Positions 2,794 through 45,239 of a stretch of DNA of 64,000 bases are shown here, one piece after another. The stretch is from assembly GCF_000014005.1 (NCBI RefSeq), contig NC_008009.1, forward strand, positions 3,348,001-3,412,000, read 5' to 3'. Position 1 is the first letter of the stretch. The number at the start of each line of letters is the position of its first letter. The notes beneath the pieces were generated by a model. It was not told the DNA's origin, did not search any database, and saw only the letters and a list, made by a program, of their open reading frames with translations. The position numbers and the translations under genes are program-made. Origin of the DNA: Candidatus Koribacter versatilis Ellin345 (GTDB lineage Bacteria; Acidobacteriota; Terriglobia; Terriglobales; Acidobacteriaceae).

Positions 2794-2876
2794 CAGCAGA
2801 TCCTTCGCTTCGCTCAGAATGACAGGAGGGGGCGATGGTGGGATGAGCAGTGTCGTCGGCTGGCCGCGAGAATCTC

Positions 2877-4335: not shown

Positions 4336-4353
4336 ATCTCATCCTGAGGGACC

Positions 4354-7628: not shown

Positions 7629-7637
7629 ACTAAGATT

Positions 7638-8597: not shown

Positions 8598-8606
8598 CTT
8601 CAAATT

Positions 8607-10711: not shown

Positions 10712-10775
10712 CTGTGGTCTATGTTATCCCTACGTCGCGACGGGTCTGCTGGTTCCGCCACCTGACAGTTCTTTA

Positions 10776-24629: not shown

Positions 24630-25586
24630 TTATGCGCGCAGAAGGTGGACGGTGAACCACTCTTTGGTATCACTCCACGTGCGTTCTACGGACAAGCCGC
24701 CGTTTTCAGCGATCGCGTGGACCATCGGCATCGTGAACTTGTAGCTGTTCTCGGTGTGGATGGTTTCACCCTTGCGAAACTCAATATCGAGATCGAGCGC
24801 GCCCAGCGACACACTTTGACGGCGCAAGCTTTCGAGATGCATCTCGATGCGAGACAATTCGTCGTTCCACACAATGCGATGAGCGAACTGATCCACATCG
24901 AAGTCGGCGTTGAGCTCGCGATTGAGTCGCACCAGCACGTTCTTGTTGAACTCAGCGGTAACGCCTTCGGAGTCGTCGTAAGCAGGAATGAGAACGTCGG
25001 GGGATTTGCGCATGTCGGTGCCGAGCAGGAGAGCGTCGCCCTGGTTCATGGAAGAACGAACCTGCTTGAGGAACAAGCCGGCTTCGAGCGGCTCAAAGTT
25101 GCCGATGCTCGATCCGATGAACAGGAAGAGCTTGCGCCCTGCGATCCGCCGGAACTGCGGCATGCCCTGGGTGAAGTCGAGAACCTTGGGAACGACCTGC
25201 AATTTCGGCAGCAACTGTTGCATGCGCACGCCGCATGCATCGAGTGCGGAGGCAGAGACGTCCACCGGGTAGTAGGTGATCGGCTCACCGGCCTTCATCA
25301 GCGCGTCGAGCAAGAGTACGGTCTTCGAGGCGCTGCCGGCGCCGAGTTCGACCGCCGCGGTGCACGCTGCAGCCTGCGCGACGATGTCGGCGGCGTTGTC
25401 GCGGAAAATCTTCCGTTCGGTTGCGGTGGGATAGTACTCCTGCAGTTCGGTTATCTGATCGAAAAGCTCGGAGCCGCGCGCGTCGTAAAACAGTTTTGGC
25501 GAAAGCGTCTTTGGATTACGCGTGAGGCCGCTCATAACGTCGTCGGCAATCGGCGAGAGCTTGGGCTCCTGGAGTCTAACGTGCAT
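24630..25586 (-). CDS. egtD: L-histidine N-alpha-methyltransferase EgtD
   Basis: A 318-residue SAM-dependent enzyme that trimethylates histidine to hercynine, the first step of ergothioneine synthesis. The family signatures are clear: FYDARGSELFDQITELQEYYPTATE near residues 33-55, the SAM site VELGAGSASKT near 79, and LFIGSSIGNFEP mid-protein. The C terminus is ETNSYKF-like (HTENSYKF), as in characterised EgtD. Its start overlaps the end of egtB by 11 bases, so the two are translationally coupled. Confidence 0.93.
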   Translation of the reverse strand: MHVRLQEPKLSPIADDVMSGLTRNPKTLSPKLFYDARGSELFDQITELQEYYPTATERKIFRDNAADIVAQAAACTAAVELGAGSASKTVLLLDALMKAGEPITYYPVDVSASALDACGVRMQQLLPKLQVVPKVLDFTQGMPQFRRIAGRKLFLFIGSSIGNFEPLEAGLFLKQVRSSMNQGDALLLGTDMRKSPDVLIPAYDDSEGVTAEFNKNVLVRLNRELNADFDVDQFAHRIVWNDELSRIEMHLESLRRQSVSLGALDLDIEFRKGETIHTENSYKFTMPMVHAIAENGGLSVERTWSDTKEWFTVHLLRA

Positions 25587-26847
25587 TGGCCGCTAACCTG
25601 ATTCCCATGAATTGCCACCGAGCCTGTGGCGGGAAGAAATTGCGATAGCTGGCCCGAATGTGAGACTGCGGCGTGGCGCACGAGCCTCCACGCAACACGA
25701 ACTGATTGCACATGAACTTGCCGTTGTACTCGCCGACCAGGCCCGCTGCCGGCTGAAATCCCGGATAGCCAACATATGGGCTGGCGGTCCACTCCCAAAC
25801 GTCGCCGTAGAACTGTGGCGCATCCGCGGATGGCGCAACGGTTGGATGAAATCGTCCGGACTCAGCGAAGTTGCCGCGTATCGGCTGAGATGCCGCAGCG
25901 TGTTCCCACTCGGCTTCGAGCGGCAGCCGCGCATTGGCCCAGTGTGCGTAAGCATCGGCCTCGTAGAAGCTGACGTGGCAAACCGGCTCATCGAGATTTA
26001 CCGGCTTCGTTCCAGCGGCGGTGAAGACACGCCACTGCTGTCCGTCGCGATCCCAGTAAAACGGCGCTTCCCATCCCTGCGCATTGACGGTGTCCCAACC
26101 ATCGGAGAGCCACAACTCAGGCCGGTGGTAACCACCATCCTGCATAAATGCTAAGTACTCGCGATTGGTGACCAGCCGATTCGCCAACTTGTATGGCTGC
26201 AAAAGAACGCGATGCCGAGGCTCTTCGTTGTCGAAGGAGAAGCCGGAGCCGGTATGCCCGATCTCGACTTCCCCACCGTCGAATGCCGACCAGGTGAGCG
26301 GAGGAGCAGAACGACTTTCTTCGTCTGACGATTCAACGAACGCGGGCTGCAAGGGCTGGGTCCAGAAGGCGTGCTTGATGTCGGTGACGATCAGTTCCTG
26401 GTGCTGCTGTTCGTGATTGAGGCCGAGGACGATTAGAGTTCTCGCGCTCTCCGGCAGATCCGAATCGATCAGCCGCTCCATTGCGGCGTTCACGTGGACC
26501 CGATACGCGAGCACGCGATCGAGCGTGGGACGCGAAAATGTGCCGCGCATCCCGCGCACCGGATGCTTTCCGACGCCTTTGTAATAGGAATTAAAGACCG
26601 CCCGAAAAGCCGGGTCGTAGGCTTTGTAGCTGGGCTGGAACTCAGCAAGCAGGAAAGTCTCGAAAAACCACGTGGTGTGGGCGAGGTGCCACTTTGCCGG
26701 GCTTGCGTCCGGCATGGACTGGACCATCAGGTCCTCTGGCGCGAGATGGGCGACCAGTCGCTCGCTGAAAGAGCGCACGGACGAGAACTGTTTTGCCAGG
26801 GCCTTGCTGTCTGGCCCTGTCTGGATCGCCGACATTCGTTCGCTCAT
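25576..26847 (-). CDS. egtB: Hercynine oxygenase EgtB (iron-dependent sulfoxide synthase), type-II-like
   Basis: A 423-residue two-domain enzyme: DinB-like four-helix domain (about 15-170) and formylglycine-generating-enzyme-like C-lectin domain (about 185-423). It couples hercynine to a thiol with O2 to form the sulfoxide precursor of ergothioneine. The iron-binding histidines are visible in WHLAH (H54/H57) and HEQQHQE (H145, H149). The pair Y88-Y89 in NSYYKG lines up, from memory, with the two active-site tyrosines of the cysteine-using EgtB of Chloracidobacterium thermophilum. No egtA or egtC homologue is nearby, in keeping with direct use of cysteine. EgtE is also absent locally. Confidence 0.92.
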   Translation of the reverse strand: MSERMSAIQTGPDSKALAKQFSSVRSFSERLVAHLAPEDLMVQSMPDASPAKWHLAHTTWFFETFLLAEFQPSYKAYDPAFRAVFNSYYKGVGKHPVRGMRGTFSRPTLDRVLAYRVHVNAAMERLIDSDLPESARTLIVLGLNHEQQHQELIVTDIKHAFWTQPLQPAFVESSDEESRSAPPLTWSAFDGGEVEIGHTGSGFSFDNEEPRHRVLLQPYKLANRLVTNREYLAFMQDGGYHRPELWLSDGWDTVNAQGWEAPFYWDRDGQQWRVFTAAGTKPVNLDEPVCHVSFYEADAYAHWANARLPLEAEWEHAAASQPIRGNFAESGRFHPTVAPSADAPQFYGDVWEWTASPYVGYPGFQPAAGLVGEYNGKFMCNQFVLRGGSCATPQSHIRASYRNFFPPQARWQFMGIRLAANAR

Positions 26848-27116: not shown

Positions 27117-27893
27117 ATGAAAGTGGTTGTGCTTTGCGGCGGACTTGGCACGCGGTTGCGCGAGGAAACCGAGTTTCGCCCCAAGCCGATGGTGGAGATC
27201 GGCGGCCGTCCGATCCTGTGGCACATTATGAAGGGCTATGCCGCTTCGGGCTTCCGAGAGTTTGTACTCTGCCTGGGTTACAAGGGATCGGCGATCAAAG
27301 AGTACTTCCTGAACTACGAGGCGATGAACAACGACTTCACGATCAACCTCGGGCGCCACTCCAAACTTGAGTTCATGAACGGCCACGCCGAGCAGGATTT
27401 CCAGGTGACGCTGGCCGACACCGGGCTGAACACGATGACCGGTGGCCGGGTGAAGCGGATCCAGAAGTACATCACCGACGACACCTTCATGATGACTTAT
27501 GGCGACGGTGTCGCGGACGTGAACATTCCCAAGCTGCTGGAGTTCCATAAATCGCACGGCAAGCTCGCGACGGTGACCGCGGTCACCCCGAATTCGCGCT
27601 TTGGCATTGTGGACATGAGCAGCGAAGGCAAAGTGATGAAGTTCATCGAGAAGCCGCGTACCGATGGGCGGGCCAATGCCGGGTTCTTCGTCCTGAACCG
27701 CAAGGTCTTCGACTACATCTCCGGCGACGATTGCACCTTCGAGCGCGAACCGATGGAACGTCTGGCTGCCGACGGCCAGTTGATGGCGTACAAGCACGAC
27801 GGCTTCTTCTACGCCATGGACACCTATCGCGAATACGAGTTCCTGAACGACCTGTGGGCCAAAGGGCAGGCGCCGTGGAAGGTTTGGCAATGA
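27117..27893 (+). CDS. rfbF: Glucose-1-phosphate cytidylyltransferase
   Basis: A 258-residue nucleotidyltransferase making CDP-glucose from CTP and glucose-1-phosphate. The start at 27117 (MKVVVLCGG) is preceded by GGGGAGAG; the longer open frame from 26865 has no family similarity. Diagnostic features: [17 protein letters not shown] at residues 8-24, [13 protein letters not shown], and ALN-type [15 protein letters not shown], all standard for RfbF/DdhA. It is the first gene of the glycan operon and overlaps rfbG by four bases. Confidence 0.95.
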
Positions 27894-28864
27894 CAAACAC
27901 TTTCTGGCGCGATCGCTCGGTCTTGGTTACGGGCGCCACCGGCCTTCTCGGCGGATGGCTCACGCGACACCTGCTCGAGCAAGGTGCTTCAGTCACGGCG
28001 CTGGTGCGCGATTCCGTGCCGCAGTCGGAGTTTGAACGCTGCCTGATGCGCCAGCGCGTGAACGTGGTGCAGGGAGATTTGAGCAAGCCACAGTTGCTGG
28101 AGCGGGTGCTTGGCGAATACGAGGTCGAGACCGTTTTCCATCTCGCGGCACAGACGATTGTTGGGATCGCGAACCGCAATCCGGTCTCGACGTTTGAGAG
28201 CAATATTCGCGGGACGTGGAATTTGCTGGAAGCGTGTCGTCGTTCGCCGAACGTCAGCGCGATTGTGCTGGCGTCGTCCGACAAAGCCTATGGCGATCAG
28301 ACGGTACTTCCGTACACCGAAGATATGCCACTGCAAGGCCGCCATCCCTACGACGTAAGCAAGTCGTGCGCCGACCTTATTGCGCAGTCGTACGCGCATA
28401 CGTTTCGTGTGCCGGTGGCGATAACGCGTTGCGGGAATTTTTATGGTGGTGGGGACCTCAACTGGAACCGCGTGGTCCCGGGCACGATTCGTTCCGTATT
28501 TCGTGGAGAGCGTCCGATTATTCGCAGCGATGGAAAGTTTGTGCGCGACTACTTCTATATAGAGGATGGCGCGGCGGCTTACATGCTGCTTGCCGAGCGA
28601 CTCACGGTCGATAAAAAGTTGATTGGCTCGGCGTTTAATTTTTCGAACGAAGCGCAAATCAACGTACTCGACCTGGTGAACACGATCCTTCAGAAGATGA
28701 ACTCGAACCTGAAACCGGAGATCCAGAACCAGGCGAATAACGAGATCCGGCACCAATTCCTGAGCGCCGAACGCGCGCGCAAGCAGCTCAACTGGCGGGC
28801 GCAGTACACGCTTGACGAAGGCCTGGAGCGCACGATCGCCTGGTACAAAGAGGTATTGCAGTAG
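27890..28864 (+). CDS. rfbG: CDP-glucose 4,6-dehydratase
   Basis: A 324-residue short-chain dehydratase producing CDP-4-keto-6-deoxyglucose. NAD-binding motif [11 protein letters not shown] lies at residues 11-21, and the active-site YDVSK supplies the Tyr-x3-Lys pair. The ATG at 27890 overlaps the rfbF stop (ATGA), which fixes the start; the longer frame from 27731 is inside rfbF. Together with rfbF and rfbH it gives the standard route to CDP-3,6-dideoxyhexoses. Confidence 0.94.
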
Positions 28865-30213
28865 TGTCCCGCGCCGACGAACTCCGCCAGAAAATACGCG
28901 CGTTGACCGCCGACTATTACGGCGAGGCTTTCGCCGCGAAGCCGTTTGTTCCCGGCGAAACTCCGGTGCAGGTTGCTGGCCGCGTGTTCGATGCGGAGGA
29001 GATGGAATCGCTCGTGGATTCCGCGCTCGACTTCTGGCTCACCACCGGGCGCTTCGCCGAACAGTTCGAACGCGAGTTTGCCAAGTTCATGAGTGTGCGC
29101 ACGGCGACATTGGTGAACTCGGGTTCCTCTGCAAATCTTGTCGCAGTGTCGGCGCTAACTTCCGAGCGGCTGGGAGATCGTCGTCTCAAGGCTTGCGATG
29201 AGGTCATTACCGTCGCCGCCGGATTCCCGACGACCGTTAATCCGATCATCCAGGCCGGGCTGGTGCCAGTGTTCGTTGACATTCAACTCGGCACCTACAA
29301 TATCGACCCTTCGCAACTCGAAGCGGCACGATCCGACAAAACGCGCGCGGTGATGATCGCGCACACGCTGGGCAATCCTTTCGATCTCGATGCGGTGACG
29401 GCGTTCGTCAAGAAGTACGACTTATGGTTGATTGAAGACTGCTGTGATGCCGTGGGATCTACCTATCGCAGACAGCGCGTGGGGAGCTTTGGCGATCTCG
29501 CAACGACGAGCTTTTATCCGGCGCACCACATCACAATGGGCGAAGGCGGAGCGGTGCTGGCTGAGAAGCCGCTGCTCAAGACGCTGATTGAGTCCTTCCG
29601 CGACTGGGGCCGCGATTGCTGGTGCGCACCGGGTGACGCCAACACCTGCGGCAAACGCTTCGACTGGCAATTGGGCGAACTGCCCCACGGCTACGACCAC
29701 AAATACACGTATTCGCACATTGGCTACAACCTGAAGGCGACCGATCTGCAAGCTGCAGTGGGTGTCGCGCAGTTGAAGAAGCTGCCTGGGTTCATCGAAG
29801 CGCGAAAGAAAAACTTTGCTGCGTTGCACAGCGGATTGGCCGATATGCAGGAAGTCTTCGCGCTGCCCGAAGCGACGGCTCATTCCGATCCCGCGTGGTT
29901 TGGATTTCCGATCCTGCTCCGCGAAGATGCGCCCTTCGAACGCAAAGAACTGATCAACTATCTTGATGAGAAGAAGATCGGGACGCGATTATTATTCGGA
30001 GGAAATCTTACGCGGCAGCCGGCTTATAAAGATGTTCCCTATCGCAAAGTCGGCTCGCTTGCCAACAGCGACATCGTGATGAATCGGCTGTTCTGGATCG
30101 GTGTTTTCCCTGGGCTGACTCCGGCGATGCTCGAGTACATGATCGAAACTCTTCACGCTGCGCCGGCTGCGATCGCCGCCAAGAAAACTTCCGCTACGCT
30201 TCCGGTGCGATAG
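28864..30213 (+). CDS. rfbH: CDP-4-keto-6-deoxyglucose 3-dehydrase (E1, RfbH/DdhC)
   Basis: A 449-residue PMP-dependent iron-sulfur enzyme removing the C3 hydroxyl. The usual PLP lysine is replaced by histidine in [12 protein letters not shown] (H221), as in authentic E1. The [2Fe-2S] cysteines are present: C193/C194 in EDCCDAV and C252, C254, C262 in CWC-x7-C. This matches the Yersinia E1 spacing (from memory C193, C251, C253, C261). Start is GTG at 28864, sharing one base with the rfbG stop. E1 needs a reductase partner (E3, RfbI/DdhD), which is not in the window. Confidence 0.95.
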
Positions 30214-31253
30214 TGATGGCGAACCCGCTCGCCGACGATCTGGATCACATCCTCGAACACACCGAGGGCTTGTGGGAAGAGCTCCGAGGGAACCGGATTT
30301 TCCTTACCGGCGGCACCGGCTTCTTTGGCTGCTGGCTGCTGGAAAGCTTTCTCTGGGCAAATGAACGGCTGCATCTCGGAGCCGCCGCCACTGTGCTCAC
30401 GCGCGATCCGGCGTCCTTCCGCGCGAAAGCGGCGCATCTCGCGGAGAATCGGGCGGTCACGCTGCCTGGCGGCGATGTACGCAGCTTCGCTTATCCCGAC
30501 GGCGGATTCTCGCATGTGATCCATGCGGCGACGGATTCGGCCATCGTGCCTAGCGCTACGGAGATCACAAGTACGATCGTCGAAGGCACCGAGCATGTTC
30601 TCGCCTTTGCTGACCATGCGAATTGCGGGAAGTTTCTCTTCACCAGTTCCGGCGCAGTCTATGGAATGCAGCCGCCGGAGATGAGCCACATGTGCGAGGA
30701 CTCCGGCGGGTGGCCCGCTCCGCTGCATCCGAGTACGCCTTACGGTGAAGCCAAGCGGGTTGCCGAAGCGAAGTGTCAGGCGGCGCAGGCGGCGGATTTC
30801 GAGACGAAGATTGCACGGTGCTTCGCGTTTGTCGGGCCATACATGAATCTCAACGTGCACTTCGCGATCGGCAACTTCCTTCGCGACCAGATGCGCGGGG
30901 GGCCGATCATCGTGAAGGGCGACGGCAGGGCCGTGCGCTCGTATCTCTATGCTTCCGACCTTGCGATATGGCTGTGGACGATATTGTTTCGAGGGCCGTC
31001 GGGGCGAGCCTACAACGTGGGTTCGGAGGATGCGATCAGCATTGGTGAACTGGCACGGTTTATCGGATCGCATGTGGATCCGGCTGTGGACGTGAGGATC
31101 GATGGATCTCCGAGTTCTGCGTCTGGTCCACGATACGTGCCCTCGACGGAGAGGGCTCGCGGCGAACTGGCGTTGGAACAGTGGGTGGGTCTTGAAGAAG
31201 CGGTGCGCAAAACGCGTAGGTGGTTCGTTCTAACCCAACCGGAAGGGACGTAG
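30213..31253 (+). CDS. NAD-dependent sugar epimerase/dehydratase or ketoreductase (extended SDR)
   Basis: A 346-residue extended short-chain dehydrogenase with LTGGTGFFGCWLLE (about residue 30), SSGAVYG and the active-site YGEAK. An N-terminal 25-residue extension precedes the Rossmann fold. GTG at 30213 or ATG at 30216 starts it, overlapping the rfbH stop. By position it could be the 4-ketoreductase or epimerase that finishes a CDP-3,6-dideoxyhexose (as RfbS/RfbJ/AscF do). The overall sequence is closer to the generic NAD-dependent epimerase family, so the reaction is not assigned. Confidence 0.82.
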   Translation: MMANPLADDLDHILEHTEGLWEELRGNRIFLTGGTGFFGCWLLESFLWANERLHLGAAATVLTRDPASFRAKAAHLAENRAVTLPGGDVRSFAYPDGGFSHVIHAATDSAIVPSATEITSTIVEGTEHVLAFADHANCGKFLFTSSGAVYGMQPPEMSHMCEDSGGWPAPLHPSTPYGEAKRVAEAKCQAAQAADFETKIARCFAFVGPYMNLNVHFAIGNFLRDQMRGGPIIVKGDGRAVRSYLYASDLAIWLWTILFRGPSGRAYNVGSEDAISIGELARFIGSHVDPAVDVRIDGSPSSASGPRYVPSTERARGELALEQWVGLEEAVRKTRRWFVLTQPEGT

Positions 31254-31369
31254 CAGCAGTTACTTCGGATTCCCCGAACGTGGTACGAAGATGAGTTCTA
31301 ACGCCCGCTTTTTCGATGCTTCCCGTTACAATCTTTAGGCACACGCTCCGAAAGAGAGGACCCCCAGCC

Positions 31370-32272
31370 ATGGCGGCGAACAACGGCCAGCAGCAGCATC
31401 CCGCAGTGCGTATCGGATCGAAGATGGTGGGCAAGGACCAGCCCTGCTACGTGATCGCCGAGATCGGGATTAATCACAACGGCGACATGGATATCGCAAA
31501 GCGACTGATTAGCGTAGCCGTCGGCGCGGGTTGCGATGCCGTCAAGTTCCAGAAGCGCACCATCGATGTGGTTTACACCGCGGCGGAACTGGCGAAGCCT
31601 CGGGAAAATCCGTTCGGCGCGACGAATGGCGACCTGAAGCGCGGGCTGGAATTCGGGCTGGAAGAATTCAAGGAGATCGATCGCTATTGTCGCGAAGTGC
31701 GGATGCCATGGTTCGCGTCGGCATGGGATGAGGCTTCTGTCGATTTCATCGCGCAGTTCGATGTGCCCTGCTTCAAGATCGCTTCCGCTTCGCTTACTGA
31801 TGACAATCTTCTGCGCCACACGCGGGCGACGGGCAAGCCCGTTATGCTCTCGACGGGCATGAGTACGGTTGAGCAGATCGATCATGCGGTGGATGTGCTG
31901 GGAAAAGATAACCTCATCCTTTTGCAGGCTTGCAGCACCTATCCGGCTTATTACGAAGAACTGAACTTGAAGGCGATCCACACGCTGATGGATCGCTACG
32001 GCGTTCCGGTTGGATACTCCGGCCATGAGACCGGGCTTCCGGCGAGCATCGCCGCGGCTGCGATGGGCGCTTGCGTTCTGGAGCGGCACATCACGCTCGA
32101 TCGCGCCATGTGGGGCTCGGACCAGGCGGCGTCGCTGGAGCCGAATGGAATTACACAACTGGTGCGATATCTGCGCATCGTTGAGAAGTCCATGGGAGAT
32201 GGCGTGAAGCGCGTTTTGGAGCGCGAACAGCCGGTCATCCAGAAACTGCGCCGCGTTGGAGGCGGGCAGTGA
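31370..32272 (+). CDS. NeuB-family (sialic/KDN-type) PEP-dependent sugar synthase lacking the SAF domain
   Basis: A 300-residue TIM-barrel enzyme that should condense phosphoenolpyruvate with a sugar. Start is ATG at 31370 with AAAGAGAGGA upstream. Family hallmarks: IAEIGINHNGDM (about residue 28), KFQKRT, STGMSTVEQI, and the two metal-binding histidines in YSGHETG and LERHIT. The usual GPDHxxSLEP becomes GSDQAASLEP. The protein ends soon after GDGVKR, so the ~60-residue C-terminal antifreeze-like (SAF) domain of NeuB, SpsE and LegI is missing. It overlaps the phosphatase gene by GTGA. No NeuA is present locally. Confidence 0.88.
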   Translation: MAANNGQQQHPAVRIGSKMVGKDQPCYVIAEIGINHNGDMDIAKRLISVAVGAGCDAVKFQKRTIDVVYTAAELAKPRENPFGATNGDLKRGLEFGLEEFKEIDRYCREVRMPWFASAWDEASVDFIAQFDVPCFKIASASLTDDNLLRHTRATGKPVMLSTGMSTVEQIDHAVDVLGKDNLILLQACSTYPAYYEELNLKAIHTLMDRYGVPVGYSGHETGLPASIAAAAMGACVLERHITLDRAMWGSDQAASLEPNGITQLVRYLRIVEKSMGDGVKRVLEREQPVIQKLRRVGGGQ

Positions 32273-32748
32273 TCGAGATCAAGGCCATCGCCATGGACGT
32301 GGATGGTGTTCTGACCGATGGGGGCGTCTGGTGGGGGCCGAACGGCGAGGAGTGGAAACGATTCTGCTTCGCCGACATCATGGGGCTCTCGCTTGCTCAT
32401 AAAGCAGGCATGAAGCTGGCGCTGATTTCTGGTGAAGACAGTCCCCTGGTGGATCGCATGGCCGCGAAGTTCGCCGGGACTGCGGTCTTCAAACCGTGTA
32501 AAGACAAGCGCACCGCGCTGGAACAATTCATTCAGAGCAATGGCCTGGCGCCGACGAACGTGTGTTTTATCGGCGATGACATCAACGATCTCGGCGCACT
32601 CGAAATCGCCGGCTTGCCTTGCGCACCGGCCGATGCACGACCGGCAGTGCTGGCGAAATGCCGGCTCGTCGCAAATGCACGCGGTGGGAACGGTGCGGTA
32701 CGCGAAATTATTGATCGAATTTTGGCAGCACAATCTGCGGGCGGATAA
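32269..32748 (+). CDS. KdsC-like HAD phosphatase
   Basis: A 159-residue C0-type HAD phosphatase with DVDGVLTDGGVWW at residues 9-21, LISGEDSP, KDKRTALEQF and GDDINDLGALEIAG. Length and motifs match KDO-8-phosphate phosphatase (KdsC) and KDN-9-phosphate phosphatases. The GTG start overlaps the NeuB-like stop, so the natural substrate is probably the phosphorylated product of that synthase, not KDO-8-P. This mirrors the KDN-9-P synthase/phosphatase pair of Bacteroides thetaiotaomicron. Confidence 0.88.
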   Translation: MIEIKAIAMDVDGVLTDGGVWWGPNGEEWKRFCFADIMGLSLAHKAGMKLALISGEDSPLVDRMAAKFAGTAVFKPCKDKRTALEQFIQSNGLAPTNVCFIGDDINDLGALEIAGLPCAPADARPAVLAKCRLVANARGGNGAVREIIDRILAAQSAGG

Positions 32749-32776: not shown

Positions 32777-34558
32777 TTGTCCCAGCCATACGTAAGCGAA
32801 ACCCGCAACATTGCAAGCTATGCCGTAGATCTGGTGGCCGCACTCGGCTCCGACACGGTCTTCAGCCTCACTGGCGGCATGGCCATGTTCATGAACCGCG
32901 CCGTTGCCACCCATAAACGCCTGAAGCCGGTGTACTGCCAGCACGAGCAAGCTTGCGTCGCTGCGGCTGAGGGCTACACCAAGGCCGCGGACTTTCGTCG
33001 CGCTGGCTTTGCCCTGATCACAGCTGGCCCTGGCGTCTCGAACTCTGTGACCTCCCTGCTTTCTGCCTACGGCGACTCTGCGCCGGTGATCGTTCTGGCC
33101 GGACAGATCAAAACCGACGACATTGATCGCTTCGGCACCCGCGCGCACGGAATTCAGGAAGTGCCCTCGCAGGCATTGATCACCCCATGTGTGAAGAAGT
33201 TCGCTCGCGTGGATCCGCTGAACTATCGAAAGCAACTCGTAGAAACGCTGGCGGAAGCATTCGCAGGACGCCCCGGCCCGGTCTTCATCGAGATTCCGCT
33301 GGATGTGCAAGGTGCACCGATCGAATACAGTGTCGAGACAATCGTCGCTGATCAAGCCGAGATAGAAAAACGAATTATCGCTTCGCGCGACGCACAACAG
33401 AGTCTGGCGCGAATCTCTGATGCACTCGGCGAACTTCTCAAGGCCAAGCGTCCGCTGCTCTATGTTGGAAATGGCTGCCGCATCGCGGGAGTAGAAGAAG
33501 CCGCCCGCACGCTGATTTCCCGCTACGATCTGCCCGCGGTTTTCTCCTGGCTCTCGTTCGATATCCTGGCCAGTCAAGATAAACACTGGTTTGGCTGCCC
33601 GGGCGGACTTGCGCCGATCTATTCCAACGAAGTGCTGGCGCGCGCCGACGTAATTCTCTTTCTCGGAGCGCGGCTTGATCTCGGCACTACCGCTTTCCAA
33701 CGCCACGCTTTTGGGGACCAGGCCCGGCGCCTGTTCATCGACATAGATCCCGCCGAGTTGGCGAAGTTCGCAGGTTTCCCGAATACCAAGTGCATCGAAG
33801 CGGATCTGCATGCACTCCCAATCGCCGTCGAACAACACGCGACGACGAACAGCGCAGCCGGAGAAGGCTGGCTGCAATGGTGCATCGCTCGCAGAGACCA
33901 ATATCTTCCTGAAGAACGCGAGCGCCTGCAGTCCACGGAAATGACGGTGTTCGGCGTCGCTGAGCTTCTCTCGCGATGGTCTGACGGCAAAGTGTTCGTA
34001 CCCGCCAGTTCCGGCTACGCGGAAGAAACTTTCTCGCGGTTCTTCGCGCCGGGTCAAGGCACGCGGTTCTTCAACGGGGCGTCGCTTGGATCTATGGGTT
34101 TGGGATTGGCACACTCCATCGGCGCTTCGTTCGGCTCGCCGCGACGCGTGATCGGACTCGAAGCCGATGGCGGCCTGATGCTCAACGTCCAAGAACTCGC
34201 GACGTTGTCTCACTACGCTCCGAAGGGCCACGTTCTCTTCGTGTTGAACAACGGCGGCTATGAATCCATTCGCGCTTCGCAGAGCCGCTATTTTGGCGCG
34301 GTGAGTGGCGTTGATGGCGAAACGGGGCTGTTCATTCCTGACCTCGCGAAGATCGCCGAAGCCTTCCAACTCCGCTATTTGCGCGTAGATTCCCTCGCTG
34401 CACTCGACGAGTTGCTTCCGAAGCTCGACCCGAATGATCCGCCCATACTGGTTGACCTCTGCGTTGCGCGCTTCGAAAATCGTGGGCCTTCGGTAAAGAC
34501 CAAGATCGGCGAGGACGGGAAGCCCTACACCACGCCGTTAGCGGAGCTATCGTGGTAA
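32777..34558 (+). CDS. Thiamine-diphosphate enzyme, acetolactate-synthase-like, in sugar operon
   Basis: A 593-residue three-domain ThDP enzyme. The cofactor-activating glutamate lies in CQHEQACVAAAEG (about residue 57), TAGPGVSNSVT follows, and the C-terminal pyrophosphate/metal motif is EADGGLMLNVQEL...NNGGYES. Start is TTG at 32777 with AGGAA six bases upstream. Real acetolactate synthase would sit with ilvN/ilvC; here it lies 28 bases after the phosphatase in a CDP-dideoxysugar operon. A known precedent is YerE, which adds a two-carbon unit from pyruvate to a CDP-3,6-dideoxy-4-ketosugar (yersiniose). Other ketosugar or inositol-type C-C chemistry is possible. Confidence 0.85.
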   Translation: MSQPYVSETRNIASYAVDLVAALGSDTVFSLTGGMAMFMNRAVATHKRLKPVYCQHEQACVAAAEGYTKAADFRRAGFALITAGPGVSNSVTSLLSAYGDSAPVIVLAGQIKTDDIDRFGTRAHGIQEVPSQALITPCVKKFARVDPLNYRKQLVETLAEAFAGRPGPVFIEIPLDVQGAPIEYSVETIVADQAEIEKRIIASRDAQQSLARISDALGELLKAKRPLLYVGNGCRIAGVEEAARTLISRYDLPAVFSWLSFDILASQDKHWFGCPGGLAPIYSNEVLARADVILFLGARLDLGTTAFQRHAFGDQARRLFIDIDPAELAKFAGFPNTKCIEADLHALPIAVEQHATTNSAAGEGWLQWCIARRDQYLPEERERLQSTEMTVFGVAELLSRWSDGKVFVPASSGYAEETFSRFFAPGQGTRFFNGASLGSMGLGLAHSIGASFGSPRRVIGLEADGGLMLNVQELATLSHYAPKGHVLFVLNNGGYESIRASQSRYFGAVSGVDGETGLFIPDLAKIAEAFQLRYLRVDSLAALDELLPKLDPNDPPILVDLCVARFENRGPSVKTKIGEDGKPYTTPLAELSW

Positions 34559-34599: not shown

Positions 34600-35538
34600 A
34601 TGCTCGGCACATCGATGCAGTGGTTGAAAACCCGCCTGGTGAAGCGCGGACCCGATAGCAAGCTGGTTCAAACCGCGCTCCGTACCCATGCACGCAAACA
34701 CGGATACCAGGTCGCATTTGCCGATGGGACGATCGAGATTAGTAAGCAGGCCCGCACGCTGATCGTGAGCAAGTCTACTTTCGTCCAGGTACCGATCCTG
34801 CTGGAATGCTTCGATCTCTTTTTCGATTGCGTGGAAGGGCGATCGGAAAACGGCTCCCTAGTTCTCGACTTCTCTAAGCCAGCCAAGCATCGTTACCGCA
34901 AAGACGGCGCCGAGTTCTACTTCCCTTCTCTCCCCGAAGAAGACGTGATGGGCGCGTATACCGAAGGCTACACGCCGCAACCCGGTGATGTTGTTTGGGA
35001 CGCCGGTGCACACGCGGGCGCGACCTCGTATTACCTGGCGAAAATGGTTGGCCCGACCGGCAAGGTCTATGGCTTCGAGCCTGACGCCAATAACTACAGC
35101 TATCTTCTGAAGAACATCGAATTGCACAGCGCGCAGAACATCATTCCGGTGAAGAAAGCGTTGTCCGGAACCACGGGAACAGCGCGCTTCTGCATGGACG
35201 GCACGATGTGCGCCGGCATTACCGACTACCTCGTCTATTCCGAGGAAGCGAAGTTTGAGACGGTTCCTACCATCACCTTCGCCGACGCGTGCGCCGAGCT
35301 AGGTTCGGTCCCGCGCTACGTGAAAATGGACATTGAAGGCGCAGAAGTAGCGACGATCGAGAGCGCGCGTGGGTTTCTGAAGGAACATCCAATTCATTTC
35401 GCGATTGAGAGCTATCACCGCGTGGATGGCGAGTTCACCTACAAACCGCTGGAACGTATTTTCGCCGAGATCGGATATCGCGTTTGGTCGAGCGACAAGT
35501 TCGGGCAGATGTTCACCTGGGCCGCTCCCAAAGAATAA
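34600..35538 (+). CDS. FkbM-family methyltransferase
   Basis: A 312-residue SAM-dependent methyltransferase. SAM motif VVWDAGAHAGATSYYLAK (about 130-147) is followed by GFEPDANNYSYLLKNI and the FkbM signature KMDIEGAEVATIESA near residue 245. ATG at 34600 is preceded by GCAGGAG. It is the last gene of the plus-strand glycan operon and probably O-methylates a sugar. Its TAA directly abuts the stop of the convergent gene, which also encodes an FkbM protein. Confidence 0.85.
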   Translation: MLGTSMQWLKTRLVKRGPDSKLVQTALRTHARKHGYQVAFADGTIEISKQARTLIVSKSTFVQVPILLECFDLFFDCVEGRSENGSLVLDFSKPAKHRYRKDGAEFYFPSLPEEDVMGAYTEGYTPQPGDVVWDAGAHAGATSYYLAKMVGPTGKVYGFEPDANNYSYLLKNIELHSAQNIIPVKKALSGTTGTARFCMDGTMCAGITDYLVYSEEAKFETVPTITFADACAELGSVPRYVKMDIEGAEVATIESARGFLKEHPIHFAIESYHRVDGEFTYKPLERIFAEIGYRVWSSDKFGQMFTWAAPKE

Positions 35539-36765
35539 TTACGGCAGGCTGCGCGACGGCGGAACCGCGTACAGCACCAGGTCCCAACCTTCCAAAAGAT
35601 GCGGTCGCAAGTAGAGTTTGTACTCCGGATCCAACTCGTGGATGTAGAGCGGCAGCACCCAGATGTCGTCCTGCCGATGATAAGCGGACATTGCAAGAAT
35701 CGGTTTGTTCCGGCGGATGGACTGCGCCGCGCCGCGCAGCGTCGGCAACTCGAATCCCTCGACGTCGAGCTTAAGGTAGCTCACGGGCGCATCGCCCAAG
35801 ACGGAATCCAAGGTCACGCACTCCACCTCGAGATCGCCCGCGCCCACGCTGGAAGCCACTCCCGCACCAGTCATCATCCGCACGCGCACGTTCGTCTCTC
35901 CGGTCGCAGCGTTATAGCAGCGAATCCTTGGCCGCACTTCGTCCGGTAAGGTCGCCACGCGAGCCATCAGTTTGTCGCAATTCGCCGGGTCCGGTTCAAA
36001 CAGCCAGGCGCTTGAGATGCGATTGCGCGACTCGGCAAGAAACTGGGCGAGCGTGTCGCCATCGTATGCTCCGCAATCGACGAAGTCCTCGTGATCGGTG
36101 ATGGAGAAGAGCTCTTCGCGGAAATAGATCGGCACTACCGGGTCTGGCAGAGATTCGGAATCGCCGAAGAGCCGCCAGCGTAGTTGCGCGACAAACTCGC
36201 GTCGCGATAGATCATCCGCCATCAACCCGAACGCCTTGCGAATGGCGCCGGCCTGCTCGTGCGCACGATGAGGCAAATCCAGCGCGTAGCGCGGAAGCAG
36301 GTGTTCCGCGTACTTCCAGAAGAGTGGAAGGAATGGCACAACGGTCTTGCAGCCTTGCGATTGCAGATGCGCGATGCGCGCCGCCGTCTTCTCAGTACCC
36401 TCGCCTCGCCACACGGTGACGACAAACACTGCGGTCGAACCGTATCGCCGAATGCCTTCGGCAGGGCTCAGGACCGGAACGCCCTCGACCCGCTGCCCCC
36501 AAAGTGCGGCGTTGTTGTCGATGAAGCAGATCGGCTCGATACCGGCATTTCGCAGCCCAGAGGCGGTATAGCGGCCATGTCCACCGGCGCCAAAGAGCAG
36601 GAGATCGGTGCGGTCCTTGCCCGCCAATTCGTCGAACGACGTGGCTTCCCGCAGCTTTGCACCAGCTACGCCTTCGGCGAGCAGACGCTCTAATTCTTCC
36701 CCAGGATCGCGCATTTCTTCGGTCAAAAGAGCCTCAGGGCTACCAGCAGGTTCGGCCGCCATCAA
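35539..36765 (-). CDS. FkbM-family methyltransferase fused to an N-terminal nucleotide-binding domain
   Basis: A 408-residue protein. Residues about 50-165 form a Rossmann-like unit (LLFGAGGHGRYTASGL, ICFIDNNAALWG) like the N-terminal domain of PglD-type sugar acetyltransferases or NAD/CoA-binding modules. Residues about 215-400 are an FkbM methyltransferase (FVDCGAYDGDTLAQF, LFEPDPANCDKL, KLDVEGFELPTLRGA). The start overlaps the SDR gene by 26 bases. Probable role: methylation of a glycan sugar, with the N-terminal domain binding a nucleotide sugar or giving oligomerisation; that part is inference. Confidence 0.83.
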   Translation of the reverse strand: MMAAEPAGSPEALLTEEMRDPGEELERLLAEGVAGAKLREATSFDELAGKDRTDLLLFGAGGHGRYTASGLRNAGIEPICFIDNNAALWGQRVEGVPVLSPAEGIRRYGSTAVFVVTVWRGEGTEKTAARIAHLQSQGCKTVVPFLPLFWKYAEHLLPRYALDLPHRAHEQAGAIRKAFGLMADDLSRREFVAQLRWRLFGDSESLPDPVVPIYFREELFSITDHEDFVDCGAYDGDTLAQFLAESRNRISSAWLFEPDPANCDKLMARVATLPDEVRPRIRCYNAATGETNVRVRMMTGAGVASSVGAGDLEVECVTLDSVLGDAPVSYLKLDVEGFELPTLRGAAQSIRRNKPILAMSAYHRQDDIWVLPLYIHELDPEYKLYLRPHLLEGWDLVLYAVPPSRSLP

Positions 36766-37561
36766 CGACCAGATTCGCGCCCGTCATGTATGAAGAGGCA
36801 TCGGAGCAAAGGAACAGAATCGCCCCGCGATATTCATCCACGTTGGCCATGCGCCCCATCGGAATGAGATTCGTCAGTCGCTCGACGAAGTCTTCCGGCT
36901 GATTATTGGCAACGCCGCCTGGCGAAATCGCATTTACGCGCACGTGTTTGTCCGCCCAATAAGTCGCGAGATAGCGCGTCAGTCCAATCAACGCCGACTT
37001 CACCACCGAGTACGTAATCGGCTTCACCGGTTGCATGTGTTCGGCGGTGCCCGGTTGGCGATAGATGCGCTGGTCGGGACCGATGATCGCAAGGTCGGAC
37101 GCCACGTTCAGGATCACGCCACCCCCCGACTTCGCCATGTGGGTACCGAATGTCTTGCAGCACAGAAATGCCCCGGTGACGCCGACAGCGATATCTGCCT
37201 CCCACTGGGCAAGCGGAAAATTCTCGAGACGCGAGAAGTTGACCTCGGCGCTGGCCTCCACGCGCGGATTGTTAGCAGCGTTGTTGATCAAGATGTCGAC
37301 GCGGCCGAAACGCGCCAACACTGTGTCCAACAACTGCGATACCTTCTCGGGCTGGGTGATGTCGCAAGCGAACCCAGCGGCCGGAACGCCAAACTGCTGG
37401 CCGATCTCCGCGGCCTTCGCTTCCGCCCGCGCCGCATCAATGTCCACCAGCACCGGAGTGCCTCCCGCGCTTGCAATTGCCGACGCGTGTTGAAAGCCAA
37501 GCAGACCGGCGCCACCCGTAATCACGGCCACTCGCCCGCTGAGATTAAATGGATCGTTCAC
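36740..37561 (-). CDS. SDR-family oxidoreductase, PtmA-like
   Basis: A 273-residue classical short-chain dehydrogenase. The cofactor motif TGGAGLLGFQHA is at residues 16-27, NNAA mid-protein, catalytic Ser in SDL/VASD region and the YSVVKSAL Tyr-x3-Lys pair near residue 185. TGGAGLLG in place of the usual TGxxxGIG resembles flagellin-modification PtmA proteins of nonulosonate loci (from memory). It lies nine bases after the Gfo/Idh gene and overlaps the fused FkbM gene. Likely oxidises or reduces a sugar in the same pathway. Confidence 0.85.
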   Translation of the reverse strand: MNDPFNLSGRVAVITGGAGLLGFQHASAIASAGGTPVLVDIDAARAEAKAAEIGQQFGVPAAGFACDITQPEKVSQLLDTVLARFGRVDILINNAANNPRVEASAEVNFSRLENFPLAQWEADIAVGVTGAFLCCKTFGTHMAKSGGGVILNVASDLAIIGPDQRIYRQPGTAEHMQPVKPITYSVVKSALIGLTRYLATYWADKHVRVNAISPGGVANNQPEDFVERLTNLIPMGRMANVDEYRGAILFLCSDASSYMTGANLVVDGGRTCW

Positions 37562-37570
37562 CGTTGTGCC

Positions 37571-38608
37571 TCACGAAAGTTCGACAATCTTTTGCGTCTG
37601 GATCGACTGCTTCACAGCGAGTGCGAGCTTTAAGCTCCACACTCCATCGTGCAAATCCGTTACAGGTTGCTTGCGCGATTTTACGCAATCGAGGAAGTGT
37701 CGCATCTCGGAAATAAAAAGCTGGTTCCGATCAAAGCCTTCCCATTGCGCGCGCTCCACGAGTTCGCCTTTCGTGTCGTAACGCGATACTGAGAGCGTCG
37801 GGAAATCGAGCACTGCTTTCCCTTGATCGCCGATCACTTCGCAATTTCGGCTCGGCGGACGCTGCAGGTAATCCTGGTGAAGCTGGACCGCGAGCGGACG
37901 ACCGTCAACACTGCATTCCATCAGAGTGCTCGCAACATCTTCGACGTCCACTTCCAAGTTGCTGAAGTGCCCACCAACCGCGTAGATGCGCTTGGCTTTT
38001 CCAAACAGTGCGGACAAATAATCGAACTCGTGAATCTGCGAAAGCACTACGCCACCGCCGAGATCGGCGCGCGCAGCGTATCCCTGGCGGTAGTCCTCGT
38101 ACTTGTGCCATCCGGGCAGATACTCTCCGACCGTGGCTCGCACCGCGAGGAGATTCCCCAGCAGTTTCTGCTGAACGACTTCTTGCACGCGTAAGAAGCA
38201 CGGGTGGAACCGGAGTTGGTAGCCGACCATCACGACCAACCCGCGCTGTTGCACCTCGGCTAGCAGTCCGTCGACGCCATCCATGGTGTGTGAGAGCGGC
38301 TTCTCGATGAACAAGTCACAGCCTACACGCGCGCACTCCAGGGCAATCGGGATATGCAAGCTGCTGGGATTGGCGATGACCGCGATGTTCGGCTTCTCCG
38401 CTAATGCCTGCGTGAGATCGCCAAACACACGCACGCCGTACTCTTGCTCGACGTTGCGATCATTGTCCAACTGCAACGTTGGCGTCACCACGGCAGTATC
38501 GCGCCGGACGCGGTAGGCCAAAACCTCCGCCTTGTCTCCGAGGATCGTGCGCAGATTGCGCAGGTGGCGCTGCCCTACCCCGCCGAGGCCGACCATCAGG
38601 ACCTTCAC
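37571..38608 (-). CDS. Gfo/Idh/MocA-family sugar dehydrogenase
   Basis: A 345-residue NAD(P)-dependent oxidoreductase. GTG at 38608 overlaps the upstream stop (GTGA), which settles the start; the frame extends to 38674 only as a shadow. The Rossmann motif VGLGGVGQRHLRNL lies at residues 6-19, EKPLSH carries the conserved catalytic-region lysine near residue 105, and the GGG-type substrate domain follows. Members act on sugars, inositols and UDP-sugars. Coupled on both sides to a TIM-barrel isomerase and an SDR, so the three enzymes most likely act on one keto-sugar or inositol-like substrate. Confidence 0.87.
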   Translation of the reverse strand: MKVLMVGLGGVGQRHLRNLRTILGDKAEVLAYRVRRDTAVVTPTLQLDNDRNVEQEYGVRVFGDLTQALAEKPNIAVIANPSSLHIPIALECARVGCDLFIEKPLSHTMDGVDGLLAEVQQRGLVVMVGYQLRFHPCFLRVQEVVQQKLLGNLLAVRATVGEYLPGWHKYEDYRQGYAARADLGGGVVLSQIHEFDYLSALFGKAKRIYAVGGHFSNLEVDVEDVASTLMECSVDGRPLAVQLHQDYLQRPPSRNCEVIGDQGKAVLDFPTLSVSRYDTKGELVERAQWEGFDRNQLFISEMRHFLDCVKSRKQPVTDLHDGVWSLKLALAVKQSIQTQKIVELS

Positions 38609-39453
38609 GCGGCCTCCCCGGAACCAATCGTATTCAGATACTTCCGAACGAAGGCGACATTGCTCTTCGTCCATTCGACTTCATTGTCCGGCTCGCCACG
38701 CGCAACTTGCAGGGTGAAGTCGCCGGCGTATCGAACCCGTTCCAGTTCGCGGAAGAGCGTGGGAAAGTCCGCGTCCCCGGTACCCAGGGGAACGGTGGAT
38801 CCACCTTTTACGCGGTCCTTGATGTGGACACTTCCGACGCGGTCGCCGTAAGCACCGAATTCGTCGGCGGGATTGTAGCCAAGCGAGGAGCTGTTGCCTG
38901 AGTCGTAATTCGCTTTCAGAAGCGGGTGCGGTAGCTCATCCAACAGGCGCTTGAAGTCGGCCGGGCCCAGCGAGGTCTCGAGGTGCAACTCGAGTCCGGT
39001 CTCTTCTGCATACGGAAGAGCTGAGCGCATGGCGTTCACTACGTCTCGAAAGTCGTCATCGGTTTTGATGGCGGAGATATCTACGAACGGGATTACCACG
39101 CGAAGAACGCCGACTTTACGACCATTCTTCAGAATCTGTTGCAATTGCGCCAATCGTTCGGCGCGCTCCTGTGCCGTGCAACGGACGAATGGGAAGTCCA
39201 TGAAGTAGTCGGCGCAGATGGCACGGATTGCGACGCCGGTTGAGTCCATCAAGCGCTGGAGATGTTCGATGCCCTTTTCGGCGCGCAGCGGGTTGACGTC
39301 GTCGCCATAGTGGTCGACGATCCATTCGATGTAGTCGATCGGGACGGCCGCGGCGTTGGCGAATTCATCTGCCCAGCGCGCGCGCGGAAAACTCTGGAAC
39401 CGGCCCGGTTCCGGTGGCACTAGTCGTCCCTGCATGATGCCCAGCTTCGACAA
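38605..39453 (-). CDS. Xylose-isomerase-like TIM-barrel sugar isomerase/epimerase
   Basis: A 282-residue protein of the AP-endonuclease-2/sugar phosphate isomerase superfamily, starting MSKLGIMQGRL, a start also seen in isomerases of surface-glycan loci (from memory). Metal ligands visible are Glu in ELHLET, Asp in NYDSGNS and His in SVHIKDR. The fourth ligand, usually Glu near the C-terminal strand, appears as Gln in FTLQVARG, so metal binding may be altered. It is the first gene of the minus-strand sugar operon. Confidence 0.82.
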   Translation of the reverse strand: MSKLGIMQGRLVPPEPGRFQSFPRARWADEFANAAAVPIDYIEWIVDHYGDDVNPLRAEKGIEHLQRLMDSTGVAIRAICADYFMDFPFVRCTAQERAERLAQLQQILKNGRKVGVLRVVIPFVDISAIKTDDDFRDVVNAMRSALPYAEETGLELHLETSLGPADFKRLLDELPHPLLKANYDSGNSSSLGYNPADEFGAYGDRVGSVHIKDRVKGGSTVPLGTGDADFPTLFRELERVRYAGDFTLQVARGEPDNEVEWTKSNVAFVRKYLNTIGSGEAA

Positions 39454-39583: not shown

Positions 39584-40582
39584 ATGAAATCCATCTCCGT
39601 CATGACGCCTTGCTACAACGAAGAAGGCAACGTGCAGGAAGTGTACCAGCGAGTGCGGGCCGCGATTGCGGGCCTCGGGCCGGGATACATTTACGAGCAC
39701 GTGTTCATTGACAATGCGTCGCGCGACAACACATGGGCGGAGCTTCGCAAACTGGCGGCAGCCGACAAGAACGTCAAAATTATTCGCAATACGAGGAATT
39801 TCGGTCACATTCGCTCGCCCATGCACGCATTCCATCAGTGCAGCGGCGATTGCGTGATCGGGCTCGTTGCCGATCTGCAGGACCCGCCGGAGATGATTCC
39901 GCAAATGGTGGCCAAGTGGGAGGAGGGCTTCCCCGTCGTTGTGTGCGTGAAAACCGGCAGCGACGAGCACGGCCTCATGTATTGGATCCGGACGAAGTAC
40001 TATCGGCTCGTGAACCGCCTCTCTGGCGTGGAGACTTACGAGAACTTCACGGGCTTTGGGCTCTACGACCGCAGAGTCGTGGATGCAATTAAGAGTATGC
40101 GCGATCCCTATCCGTATTTCCGCGGGCTCGTGGCGGAAATCGGATACCCGCACTACTCGATCGAGTTTCACCAGCCGCTGCGGCGGCGGGGCATCACCAA
40201 GAACAACTTCTACAGCCTCTACGACAATGCCATGCTCGGCATCACGAACCTGTCGAAGGTGCCGCTGCGACTGGTGAGTTTTGCAGGCTTCTTAGGGGCG
40301 TTGCTTAGCGTGTGCCTTGGCTTTGCATATCTCATCTACAAGCTGGTTTTCTGGAAGAACTTCTCCGTCGGAATTGCGCCGCTGGTGATCGGTATGTTCT
40401 TTCTGGCATCAATCCAGCTGGTATCGCTGGGAATCATCGGCGAGTACATTGGGCAAATCCATACCCAGATTCAAGATCGCCCGTTTGTTTTTGAGCAGGA
40501 ACGCGTGAACTTCGAGTATCCGCCCGGAGAACCGCTCATATCGGCGCTAACGGAGATTGCGAACGAGGAACGGAAGGCGTGA
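39584..40582 (+). CDS. GT2 glycosyltransferase with C-terminal membrane anchor (GtrB/DPM-like)
   Basis: A 332-residue family-2 glycosyltransferase. SVMTPCYNEEGNV opens the GT-A domain, DNASRDNTW and LVADLQDPPEM give the DxD-type metal site, and two transmembrane helices follow (about 230-260 and 268-295). This is the layout of GtrB/DPMS enzymes that load a sugar onto undecaprenyl or dolichyl phosphate. It is coupled (GTGA) to a flippase-like membrane protein. Confidence 0.9.
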   Translation: MKSISVMTPCYNEEGNVQEVYQRVRAAIAGLGPGYIYEHVFIDNASRDNTWAELRKLAAADKNVKIIRNTRNFGHIRSPMHAFHQCSGDCVIGLVADLQDPPEMIPQMVAKWEEGFPVVVCVKTGSDEHGLMYWIRTKYYRLVNRLSGVETYENFTGFGLYDRRVVDAIKSMRDPYPYFRGLVAEIGYPHYSIEFHQPLRRRGITKNNFYSLYDNAMLGITNLSKVPLRLVSFAGFLGALLSVCLGFAYLIYKLVFWKNFSVGIAPLVIGMFFLASIQLVSLGIIGEYIGQIHTQIQDRPFVFEQERVNFEYPPGEPLISALTEIANEERKA

Positions 40583-44769: not shown

Positions 44770-45239
44770 TCCCCGTCCTCCCGTTGCAACTGCTTCCGCT
44801 TCTCGCGGATCTCGGCTTCGAGCTTGGAGAGAATGGCAGCGTCCTTCGAATCCACGCTCTCGATCAGGAAGGAGAGCAGGTACCGCTTGGAATGCAGCGG
44901 ATCTATCGAAATACCGTTGACGAGGTCGCGCGCAATGCCGCGCTGCACCTCCTGCTTCGAGCAGGCCGCATTGTAGACAAACGCCCGGCCCTTCTTGTGG
45001 CGGCCGAGCAGGCCTTTGCGATAGAGGCGATCCAGGGTCGTCATAATCGTGGTGTACGCGAGCTGCCGGTCAATATGCGCAATCACATCGTTGACGGTGA
45101 CTTCATTCTGGGACCAAACTTGCTCTAGCACAGCACACTCGAGTTCGCCGAGGGAATGCTGCCTGCCGGTTTTTTCGTTGGTGAACAATCTGCCGATTAA
45201 GGACTGAAACACGCGGAGCTCCTCGAAAGTAGCCAACAT
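44766..45239 (-). CDS. BlaI/MecI-family transcriptional repressor
   Basis: A 157-residue winged-helix regulator. The DNA-binding half (about 25-100) contains LGELECAVLEQVW, VTVNDVIAHI and YTTIMTTLDRLYRKGLL, the family pattern; the C-terminal half forms the dimerisation helices. It is paired with the M56 protease. The inverted repeat GTAG-N8-CTAC at 45229-45244 covers its own start codon and may be an autoregulatory site. The Tat-exported amidase is transcribed divergently. Confidence 0.9.
   Translation of the reverse strand: MLATFEELRVFQSLIGRLFTNEKTGRQHSLGELECAVLEQVWSQNEVTVNDVIAHIDRQLAYTTIMTTLDRLYRKGLLGRHKKGRAFVYNAACSKQEVQRGIARDLVNGISIDPLHSKRYLLSFLIESVDSKDAAILSKLEAEIREKRKQLQREDGE

Follow-up and report, generated by a model that had tools for sequence, protein, structure and literature searches.

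The window, by which we mean the whole 64,000-nucleotide stretch analysed here, lies in a genome represented by a single contig of 5,650,368 bases. It holds the following genes:

27117..27893, plus strand: RfbF, glucose-1-phosphate cytidylyltransferase (TIGR02623, 347.7 bits, cut-off 300.25)
27890..28864, plus strand: RfbG-like CDP-glucose 4,6-dehydratase (best model TIGR02622, 229 bits, below the cut-off of 278.45)
28864..30213, plus strand: RfbH, CDP-4-dehydro-6-deoxyglucose 3-dehydrase type (NF011936, 741 bits, cut-off 423)
30213..31253, plus strand: SDRa, NAD-dependent epimerase/reductase-like protein (PF01370)
31370..32272, plus strand: SAF-less NeuB-family synthase, 300 aa (PF03102; model pLDDT 92.3)
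32269..32748, plus strand: KdsC-family HAD phosphatase (TIGR01670, 115.6 bits, cut-off 106.95), overlapping the synthase gene by GTGA
32777..34558, plus strand: ThDP-dependent enzyme, YerE-like, candidate carboligase (TPP_enzyme N, M and C domains; ThDP motif ADGG)
34600..35538, plus strand: FkbM-type methyltransferase (PF05050, TIGR01444)
35539..36765, minus strand: FkbM methyltransferase with a PglD-like N-terminal part (PF05050, PF17836; PglD_N at 21.9 bits, below the cut-off of 23.4)
36740..37561, minus strand: SDRb, short-chain dehydrogenase (PF13561)
37571..38674, minus strand: GFO/IDH/MocA oxidoreductase, here GFO (PF01408)
38605..39453, minus strand: xylose-isomerase-like TIM barrel (PF01261)
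39584..40582, plus strand: family 2 glycosyltransferase (PF00535)

The start given for RfbF is inferred: its open reading frame opens at 26865, and the TIGR02623 match runs from residue 85 of this longer frame. The RfbG-like gene overlaps RfbF by ATGA. RfbH-type enzymes need a reductase. SDRa is a candidate reductase for the 4-keto group or for a branch.

The reading frame of the synthase spans 31316-32272, and its better start is the ATG at 31370, behind the good ribosome-binding sequence AGAGAGGA. Residue numbers below are counted from the opening of the frame at 31316, not from this ATG. The resulting protein of 300 residues has the length given in an earlier, sequence-only reading of this DNA. 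That reading also described the synthase as devoid of the SAF domain, and PF03102 (266.1 bits, cut-off 22.1, model positions 1-241 of 241) is indeed its sole Pfam match at E ≤ 0.001. A hidden frameshift or a SAF domain encoded downstream was considered and rejected, because the KdsC gene begins inside the last codons of the synthase gene and the tails of its close relatives are short. The protein scores below the equivalog models for N-acetylneuraminate synthase (TIGR03569, 262.2 versus a cut-off of 399.65) and pseudaminic acid synthase (TIGR03586, 198.7 versus 340.25). The two remaining PF03102 matches genome-wide are weak (44 and 34 bits), and it is therefore the only strong NeuB match of the genome. 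Structure prediction gave a confident model, with a fold that matches first 6ncs and then PseI and NeuB. Synthases 72-77% identical to this one adjoin KdsC and ThDP genes in five related genomes, so the arrangement is not a chance one.

Assignment of the overlapping gene to the KdsC family, proposed earlier, is borne out by its score above the TIGR01670 cut-off. PDB matches of the phosphatase are KdsC chains, with 3e81, which we take to be the phosphatase of Bacteroides thetaiotaomicron, at rank 3. A second KdsC-family match above cut-off lies elsewhere in the genome, at 4453865 (118.4 bits), which makes it less likely that the phosphatase of the operon is the genome's Kdo phosphatase.

The closest solved relative of the ThDP enzyme is 8rph, by sequence (200.6 bits; next match 148.7). 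In a fold search with the predicted model (pLDDT 75.7) JanthE takes ranks 1-6 (E = 8.2e-40), with acetohydroxyacid synthase close behind (1.2e-36). PMC12188165 identifies the 8rph entry as JanthE, which is YerE-like and carries the motif CDG; the window enzyme has ADG. Hence, the window enzyme has a YerE-like protein as its nearest solved relative and CDP-3,6-dideoxyhexose genes upstream, and we class it as YerE-like. It is nonetheless an outlier: it shares just 29-36% identity with the 21 enzymes it was compared with, 16 of which are 50-56% identical to the enzyme of L040, a locus on a Chloroflexi contig. For the L040 enzyme, too, the first PDB match is 8rph (436.7 bits), and the window genome holds no better match to it elsewhere. 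The ThDP motif, ADG in the window enzyme, reads GDG in 14 of 22 rows and fits no pattern in 7. The window enzyme may have moved to another donor, and since it diverges most from the set, this donor could be plain pyruvate.

Relatives of the synthase were drawn from three kinds of source. Among 120 related genomes, 36 had a match at E ≤ 1e-20, in many cases a SAF-bearing one; one scan of genome contigs yielded 29 loci; and four phylum samples were searched at E ≤ 1e-75. In the sample of the window's own phylum, 8 of 396 genomes had a match. For the phyla of L040, L038 and L042 the counts were 31/301, 21/345 and 14/288, some of these matches bearing SAF. L153 and L176 were omitted as repeats of L040 and L042, and the fragments L064 and L065 were not used; L085 and L086 are near-copies, and L091 and L092 come from one genome. 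A tree was built from 115 rows, and a single branch of it (support 100/99.9) sets 94 SAF-less rows apart. Adjoining this clade are 8 SAF-bearing intermediates, with L058 further out. The tail that follows the H.T motif has 57-77 residues in the clade versus 112-147 in SAF-bearing rows, the shorter tails of L054, L070 and L185 belonging to cut or incomplete sequences. L161 (tail of 77 residues, cut at 75) was relabelled as SAF-less. L058 and L074 have no tail and yet fall outside the clade; they are omitted from counts of 94 and included in counts of 96 SAF-less rows, 59 NeuA loci and 16 loci with neither neighbour.

Conservation within the clade is strict. K77, Q79, K154, S157, Y209, H237, E256 and H258 are invariant in 94/94 rows, and D269 in all 93 rows with a letter at that position. 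K77, Q79, K154, H237, H258 and D269 align with Lys53, Gln55, Lys129, His215, His236 and Asp247 of Neisseria meningitidis NeuB, which we take to be its ligands for phosphoenolpyruvate (PEP) and metal. The pair K80-R81 is present in 94/94 clade rows, in 8/8 intermediates and in none of the 26 other SAF-bearing homologues. Conversely, at the position of N. meningitidis NeuB Glu134, a residue with an acceptor role, an acidic residue is found in 0/94 clade rows, compared with E or D in 26/26 SAF-bearing homologues and D in 7/8 intermediates. The Lys-Arg pair of the SAF-less synthases lies near the acceptor site. On this tree, the pair arose before SAF was lost, because it is also fixed in the SAF-bearing intermediates, and loss of the acidic residue accompanies SAF loss. 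Our synthase resembles NeuB and PseI in its barrel and its PEP and metal residues, and differs from them in the missing SAF domain, in scores under both equivalog cut-offs and in the non-acidic Glu134 position. The top PDB match by both sequence and fold, 6ncs, is a Leptospira borgpetersenii synthetase whose 290-residue chain is likewise too short for SAF. It is a distant relative (~30% identical) that differs in having GID for GSD, EKH for ERH, D at the Glu134 position and no Lys-Arg pair after KFQ.

The GSDQ motif reported earlier is present, from residue 267. Whether GSDQ and SAF loss together define a subfamily had been put forward as a point to check. SAF loss with GSD[QH] does coincide with one clade, but GSDQ on its own is not diagnostic and we rejected it as a unique marker: S is found in 83 of 93 clade members and Q in 86, the other 7 having H for Q. 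Similar motifs, GHE and GSD, occur in the Neu5Ac-9-phosphate synthase of vertebrates.

No NeuA is encoded in the 64-kb window, as had been noted before. Extending the search to the whole genome returned three PF02348 matches, namely one KdsB (TIGR00466, 199.9 bits, cut-off 155.2) and two weak matches (28.5 and 24.3 bits), and so no NeuA at the sensitivity of this profile. All 21 genomes of clade members with a nearby ThDP gene were searched in the same way, some of them incomplete (including G052, 70%, and G249, 67%). Eighteen, some of the incomplete ones among them, have no PF02348 match between 40 and 120 bits and, judged by score, hold at most one match in the KdsB range plus weak ones. In the L040 genome there is no PF02348 match at all. 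The three others have an extra or unclear match: G1149 (88 bits) and G1010 (64.5 bits), where it falls within the NeuA score range and lies elsewhere in the genome, and G1308, where a match of 97 bits is the sole one. A same-genus relative of the window, L066, encodes a phosphatase fused to a cytidylyltransferase-like domain (L066:10389-11507, minus strand). When compared with L056, this domain is missing the ARGGSKG.PGKN motif, and it scores 38 bits with our NeuA profile; it looks like the relic of a lost CMP-synthetase.

Across the clade, NeuA and the ThDP gene take each other's place. Neighbours were classed by the genes within 9 kb of the synthase, using a NeuA profile built from 12 sequences (45-bit cut) and a ThDP profile built from 11 (300-bit cut). 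Among the 94 clade loci, 58 have NeuA only, 21 have the ThDP gene only, none has both and 15 have neither. For the 96 SAF-less rows, which are related and not independent, Fisher's test of this exclusion gives p = 1.6e-11. L170, with NeuA beside the synthase and a ThDP gene 9.2 kb off, is the sole locus with both at unlimited distance. The ThDP label changes 6 times on the tree, by gain or loss, and 5 of these changes are forced by well-supported branches. In 5 independent pairs, NeuA moves opposite to the ThDP gene in 3.3 on average and the same way in 0.0, while RfbH moves with the ThDP gene in 2.8 and never opposite; the direction is consistent, but 5 pairs are too few for a sign test to reach 0.05.

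The ThDP loci have further features in common. In 21/21 the ThDP gene is on the same strand as the synthase gene and 1.3-3.2 kb from it (mid to mid), with KdsC preceding the ThDP gene in 16 and lying behind it in L158, L167, L184, L186 and L187. Within 9 kb, 12/21 have RfbH, 14/21 have SDRa and 12/21 have the second FkbM type (homologues of the window gene at 35539..36765), each of which is found at 0/59 NeuA loci. RfbH lies near the synthase in the window lineage and also in L158, L167 and L186, which occupy separate positions on the tree. Several of the 9 ThDP loci with no RfbH within 9 kb end at a contig edge, although the flanks of L067 and L184 reach 7 kb or more in both directions. One other SAF-less locus, L037, has both RfbH and SDRa; its contig stops ~1 kb past the synthase gene. 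The remaining genes occur with both types of synthase locus: SDRb at 4/21 ThDP and 31/59 NeuA loci, GFO at 6/21 and 26/59, and the isomerase-like gene at 4/21 and 5/59. These three may help to determine the form of either the acceptor or the acid. The L040 contig carries on one strand (1189-15127) RfbF, RfbG, RfbH, SDRa, the synthase, KdsC, the ThDP enzyme, the isomerase-like gene, GFO, SDRb and FkbM. In the same phylum, 23 loci (L123-L145) have a single reading frame for NeuA and KdsC beside the synthase gene in 23/23, with SDRb in 22, GFO detected in 19 and a ThDP gene in none; this layout probably represents one CMP-ulosonate pathway.

What is the acceptor of the synthase? The synthase gene has KdsC within 9 kb at 21/21 ThDP loci, 42/59 NeuA loci, 5/16 other SAF-less loci and 6/8 SAF-bearing intermediates. 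BLAST with the window KdsC found none beside 23 SAF-bearing loci (L014-L036), for which the flank was ~1.5 kb or less. KdsC shares one reading frame with NeuA at 31 loci and with GmhA at 5, one of them a ThDP locus. The GmhA fusions occur in both orders (KdsC-GmhA in L041, L047 and L061; GmhA-KdsC in L165 and L167), which suggests separate fusion events and an acceptor made by GmhA. In all, GmhA lies within ~1 kb, or in the same frame as KdsC, in L039, L041, L047, L052, L061, L066, L165, L167 and L171, and further away in L040, L179 and L181. The GmhA of the same-genus relative L066 adjoins the synthase gene and exceeds the D-sedoheptulose 7-phosphate isomerase model (212.2, cut-off 209.45). 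No GmhA lies near the window synthase; the genome's two SIS_2 matches lie at 4476577 and 3087429. Since KdsC is linked or fused with GmhA or NeuA beside the synthase gene, these arrangements suggest that the acceptor is an aldose phosphate, which, going by the GmhA fusions, may be a heptose 7-phosphate.

A phosphorylated acceptor had also been proposed from the sequence alone, by analogy with the Kdn-9-phosphate route of B. thetaiotaomicron, and the linkage to a phosphatase fits. That route consists of a synthase and a HAD phosphatase, and the Kdn-9-phosphate synthases of B. thetaiotaomicron and Prymnesium parvum use mannose 6-phosphate (PMC6200933), which by analogy is a possible alternative acceptor here. 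The pairing of a NeuB-family synthase with a KdsC-like HAD phosphatase is common to both systems, as would be the phosphorylated acceptor. Plain Kdn, however, is not established as the product. The window phosphatase scores 110.7 with the curated Kdn-9-phosphate phosphatase model (NF058599), below its cut-off of 180, the GmhA fusions hint at a heptose phosphate, and the B. thetaiotaomicron route (BT1714, Kdn-9-phosphate phosphatase, CMP-Kdn synthetase) includes a CMP-synthetase, where KdsB is the sole one found in the window genome.

Activation of the product was left unexplained by the sequence-only reading. The gap is real, but the YerE-like ThDP enzyme and the CDP-3,6-dideoxyhexose genes now offer a specific explanation. 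The unit that YerE adds to CDP-3,6-dideoxy-4-keto-glucose comes from pyruvate, and ErwE attaches a keto acid carrying a hydroxyl group to CDP-4-keto-3,6-dideoxyglucose (PMC12247030). This last sugar is the expected product of the window's RfbF, RfbG and RfbH. ErwE does not use pyruvate and favours chains longer than C4, for example 4-hydroxy-2-oxobutanoate to -hexanoate; MMAR_2332 has a similar preference for 4-hydroxy-2-oxo acids, and ropiose and aurantose are assumed to form likewise (PMC12247030). The available text of this review makes no mention of NeuB or nonulosonic acids, and none of the literature matches listed links YerE with a nonulosonic acid. Ketoreduction after YerE was described as uncharacterised as of 2016 (PMC4753412).

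We propose, with somewhat better than even confidence, that the SAF-less synthase and KdsC together produce the acyl donor used by the YerE-like ThDP enzyme, and that no CMP-synthetase is needed. The synthase would condense phosphoenolpyruvate with a phosphorylated aldose (a hexose 6-phosphate or, going by the GmhA fusions, a heptose 7-phosphate), and KdsC would strip the phosphate to leave a free 3-deoxy-2-ulosonic acid that skips coupling to CMP. RfbF, RfbG and RfbH, encoded upstream, would supply the acceptor CDP-4-keto-3,6-dideoxyglucose. The ThDP enzyme would then decarboxylate the ulosonic acid and move the acyl chain onto C4 of this acceptor, and SDRa may reduce the new branch ketone. 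The ThDP enzyme is a plausible user of the ulosonic acid because ErwE-type enzymes prefer 4-hydroxy-2-oxo acids, and a 3-deoxy-2-ulosonic acid is chemically such an acid. Such a route would yield a sugar with a long branch, destined for a surface glycan and already activated with CDP through its hexose part, so that NeuA would be unnecessary. Every reaction, acceptor and product in this scheme we infer from gene content.

The main rival to a donor-making branch is co-location of two separate products. The ThDP enzyme would use pyruvate to make a yersiniose-type sugar, and the synthase and KdsC would independently make an ulosonic acid whose activation, if it occurs at all, falls to an unrecognised enzyme. 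Classical YerE uses pyruvate (PMC12247030), the window enzyme is the outlier of its set, and both modules could merely be neighbours in one glycan locus. Against this, the ThDP gene lies close to the synthase gene, on the same strand, in 21/21 ThDP loci, NeuA is within 9 kb in 0/21 of them, and RfbH and SDRa are found at 0/59 NeuA loci, the one other SAF-less locus that has them being L037, near its contig end. We consider two products unlikely, although less so than the remaining explanations.

Alternatively, the genome's KdsB could accept a substrate other than its usual one and couple CMP to an ordinary Kdn-like or other nonulosonic acid. The presence of a KdsB and the precedent of a synthase with a HAD phosphatase in the B. 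thetaiotaomicron Kdn route (PMC6200933) are consistent with this. KdsB cannot be the general answer, however, because L040 has the same operon in a genome with no PF02348 match, and NeuA-bearing relatives keep a dedicated gene, in 31 loci in one reading frame with KdsC. We regard this explanation as improbable. Slightly more improbable still is that the ThDP enzyme does no more than convert the ulosonate into a 2-deoxy aldehyde sugar by decarboxylation, or uses it with some other keto acceptor, unrelated to the CDP-hexose. The 9 of 21 ThDP loci with no RfbH within 9 kb speak for such a function, whereas recurrence of RfbH near the synthase in the window lineage and at three separate tree positions argues against it.

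If the synthase and KdsC do make the donor, NeuA and the ThDP enzyme represent two alternative fates of one kind of precursor. This would account for where the long keto-acid donors thought to be used by some YerE-like enzymes come from, and would explain NeuB homologues that are not accompanied by a CMP-synthetase. It would also define a clade of SAF-less synthases (94 loci here) that could easily be annotated as sialic acid synthesis, and the combination of SAF-less synthase, KdsC, ThDP enzyme and RfbFGH, with no NeuA, would be a gene signature that predicts large branched sugars. A broader proposal, to which we give slightly less than even weight, is that this is a widespread pathway, assembled more than once, in which ulosonic acids serve as ThDP acyl donors for CDP-linked branched sugars of ~14-15 carbons. 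A nine-carbon acid would give 6 + 8 = 14 carbons, and a GmhA-made heptose phosphate would give a ten-carbon acid and a 15-carbon sugar. Aurantose of Spirochaeta aurantia has 14 carbons.

Two further features of the window were observed on either side of these genes. On the minus strand at 24630-26847, a gene for an EgtD-type histidine methyltransferase (TIGR03438, 361.7, cut-off 290.9) overlaps a 423-aa reading frame that by eye resembles EgtB; the two may form an ergothioneine pair next to the sugar operon. At 43813-45239, also on the minus strand, a CopY/BlaI-like repressor (below cut-off) adjoins a 318-aa reading frame with no NCBIfam match at 1e-8. In L066, the same-genus relative, members of both these latter families also lie close to the cluster.
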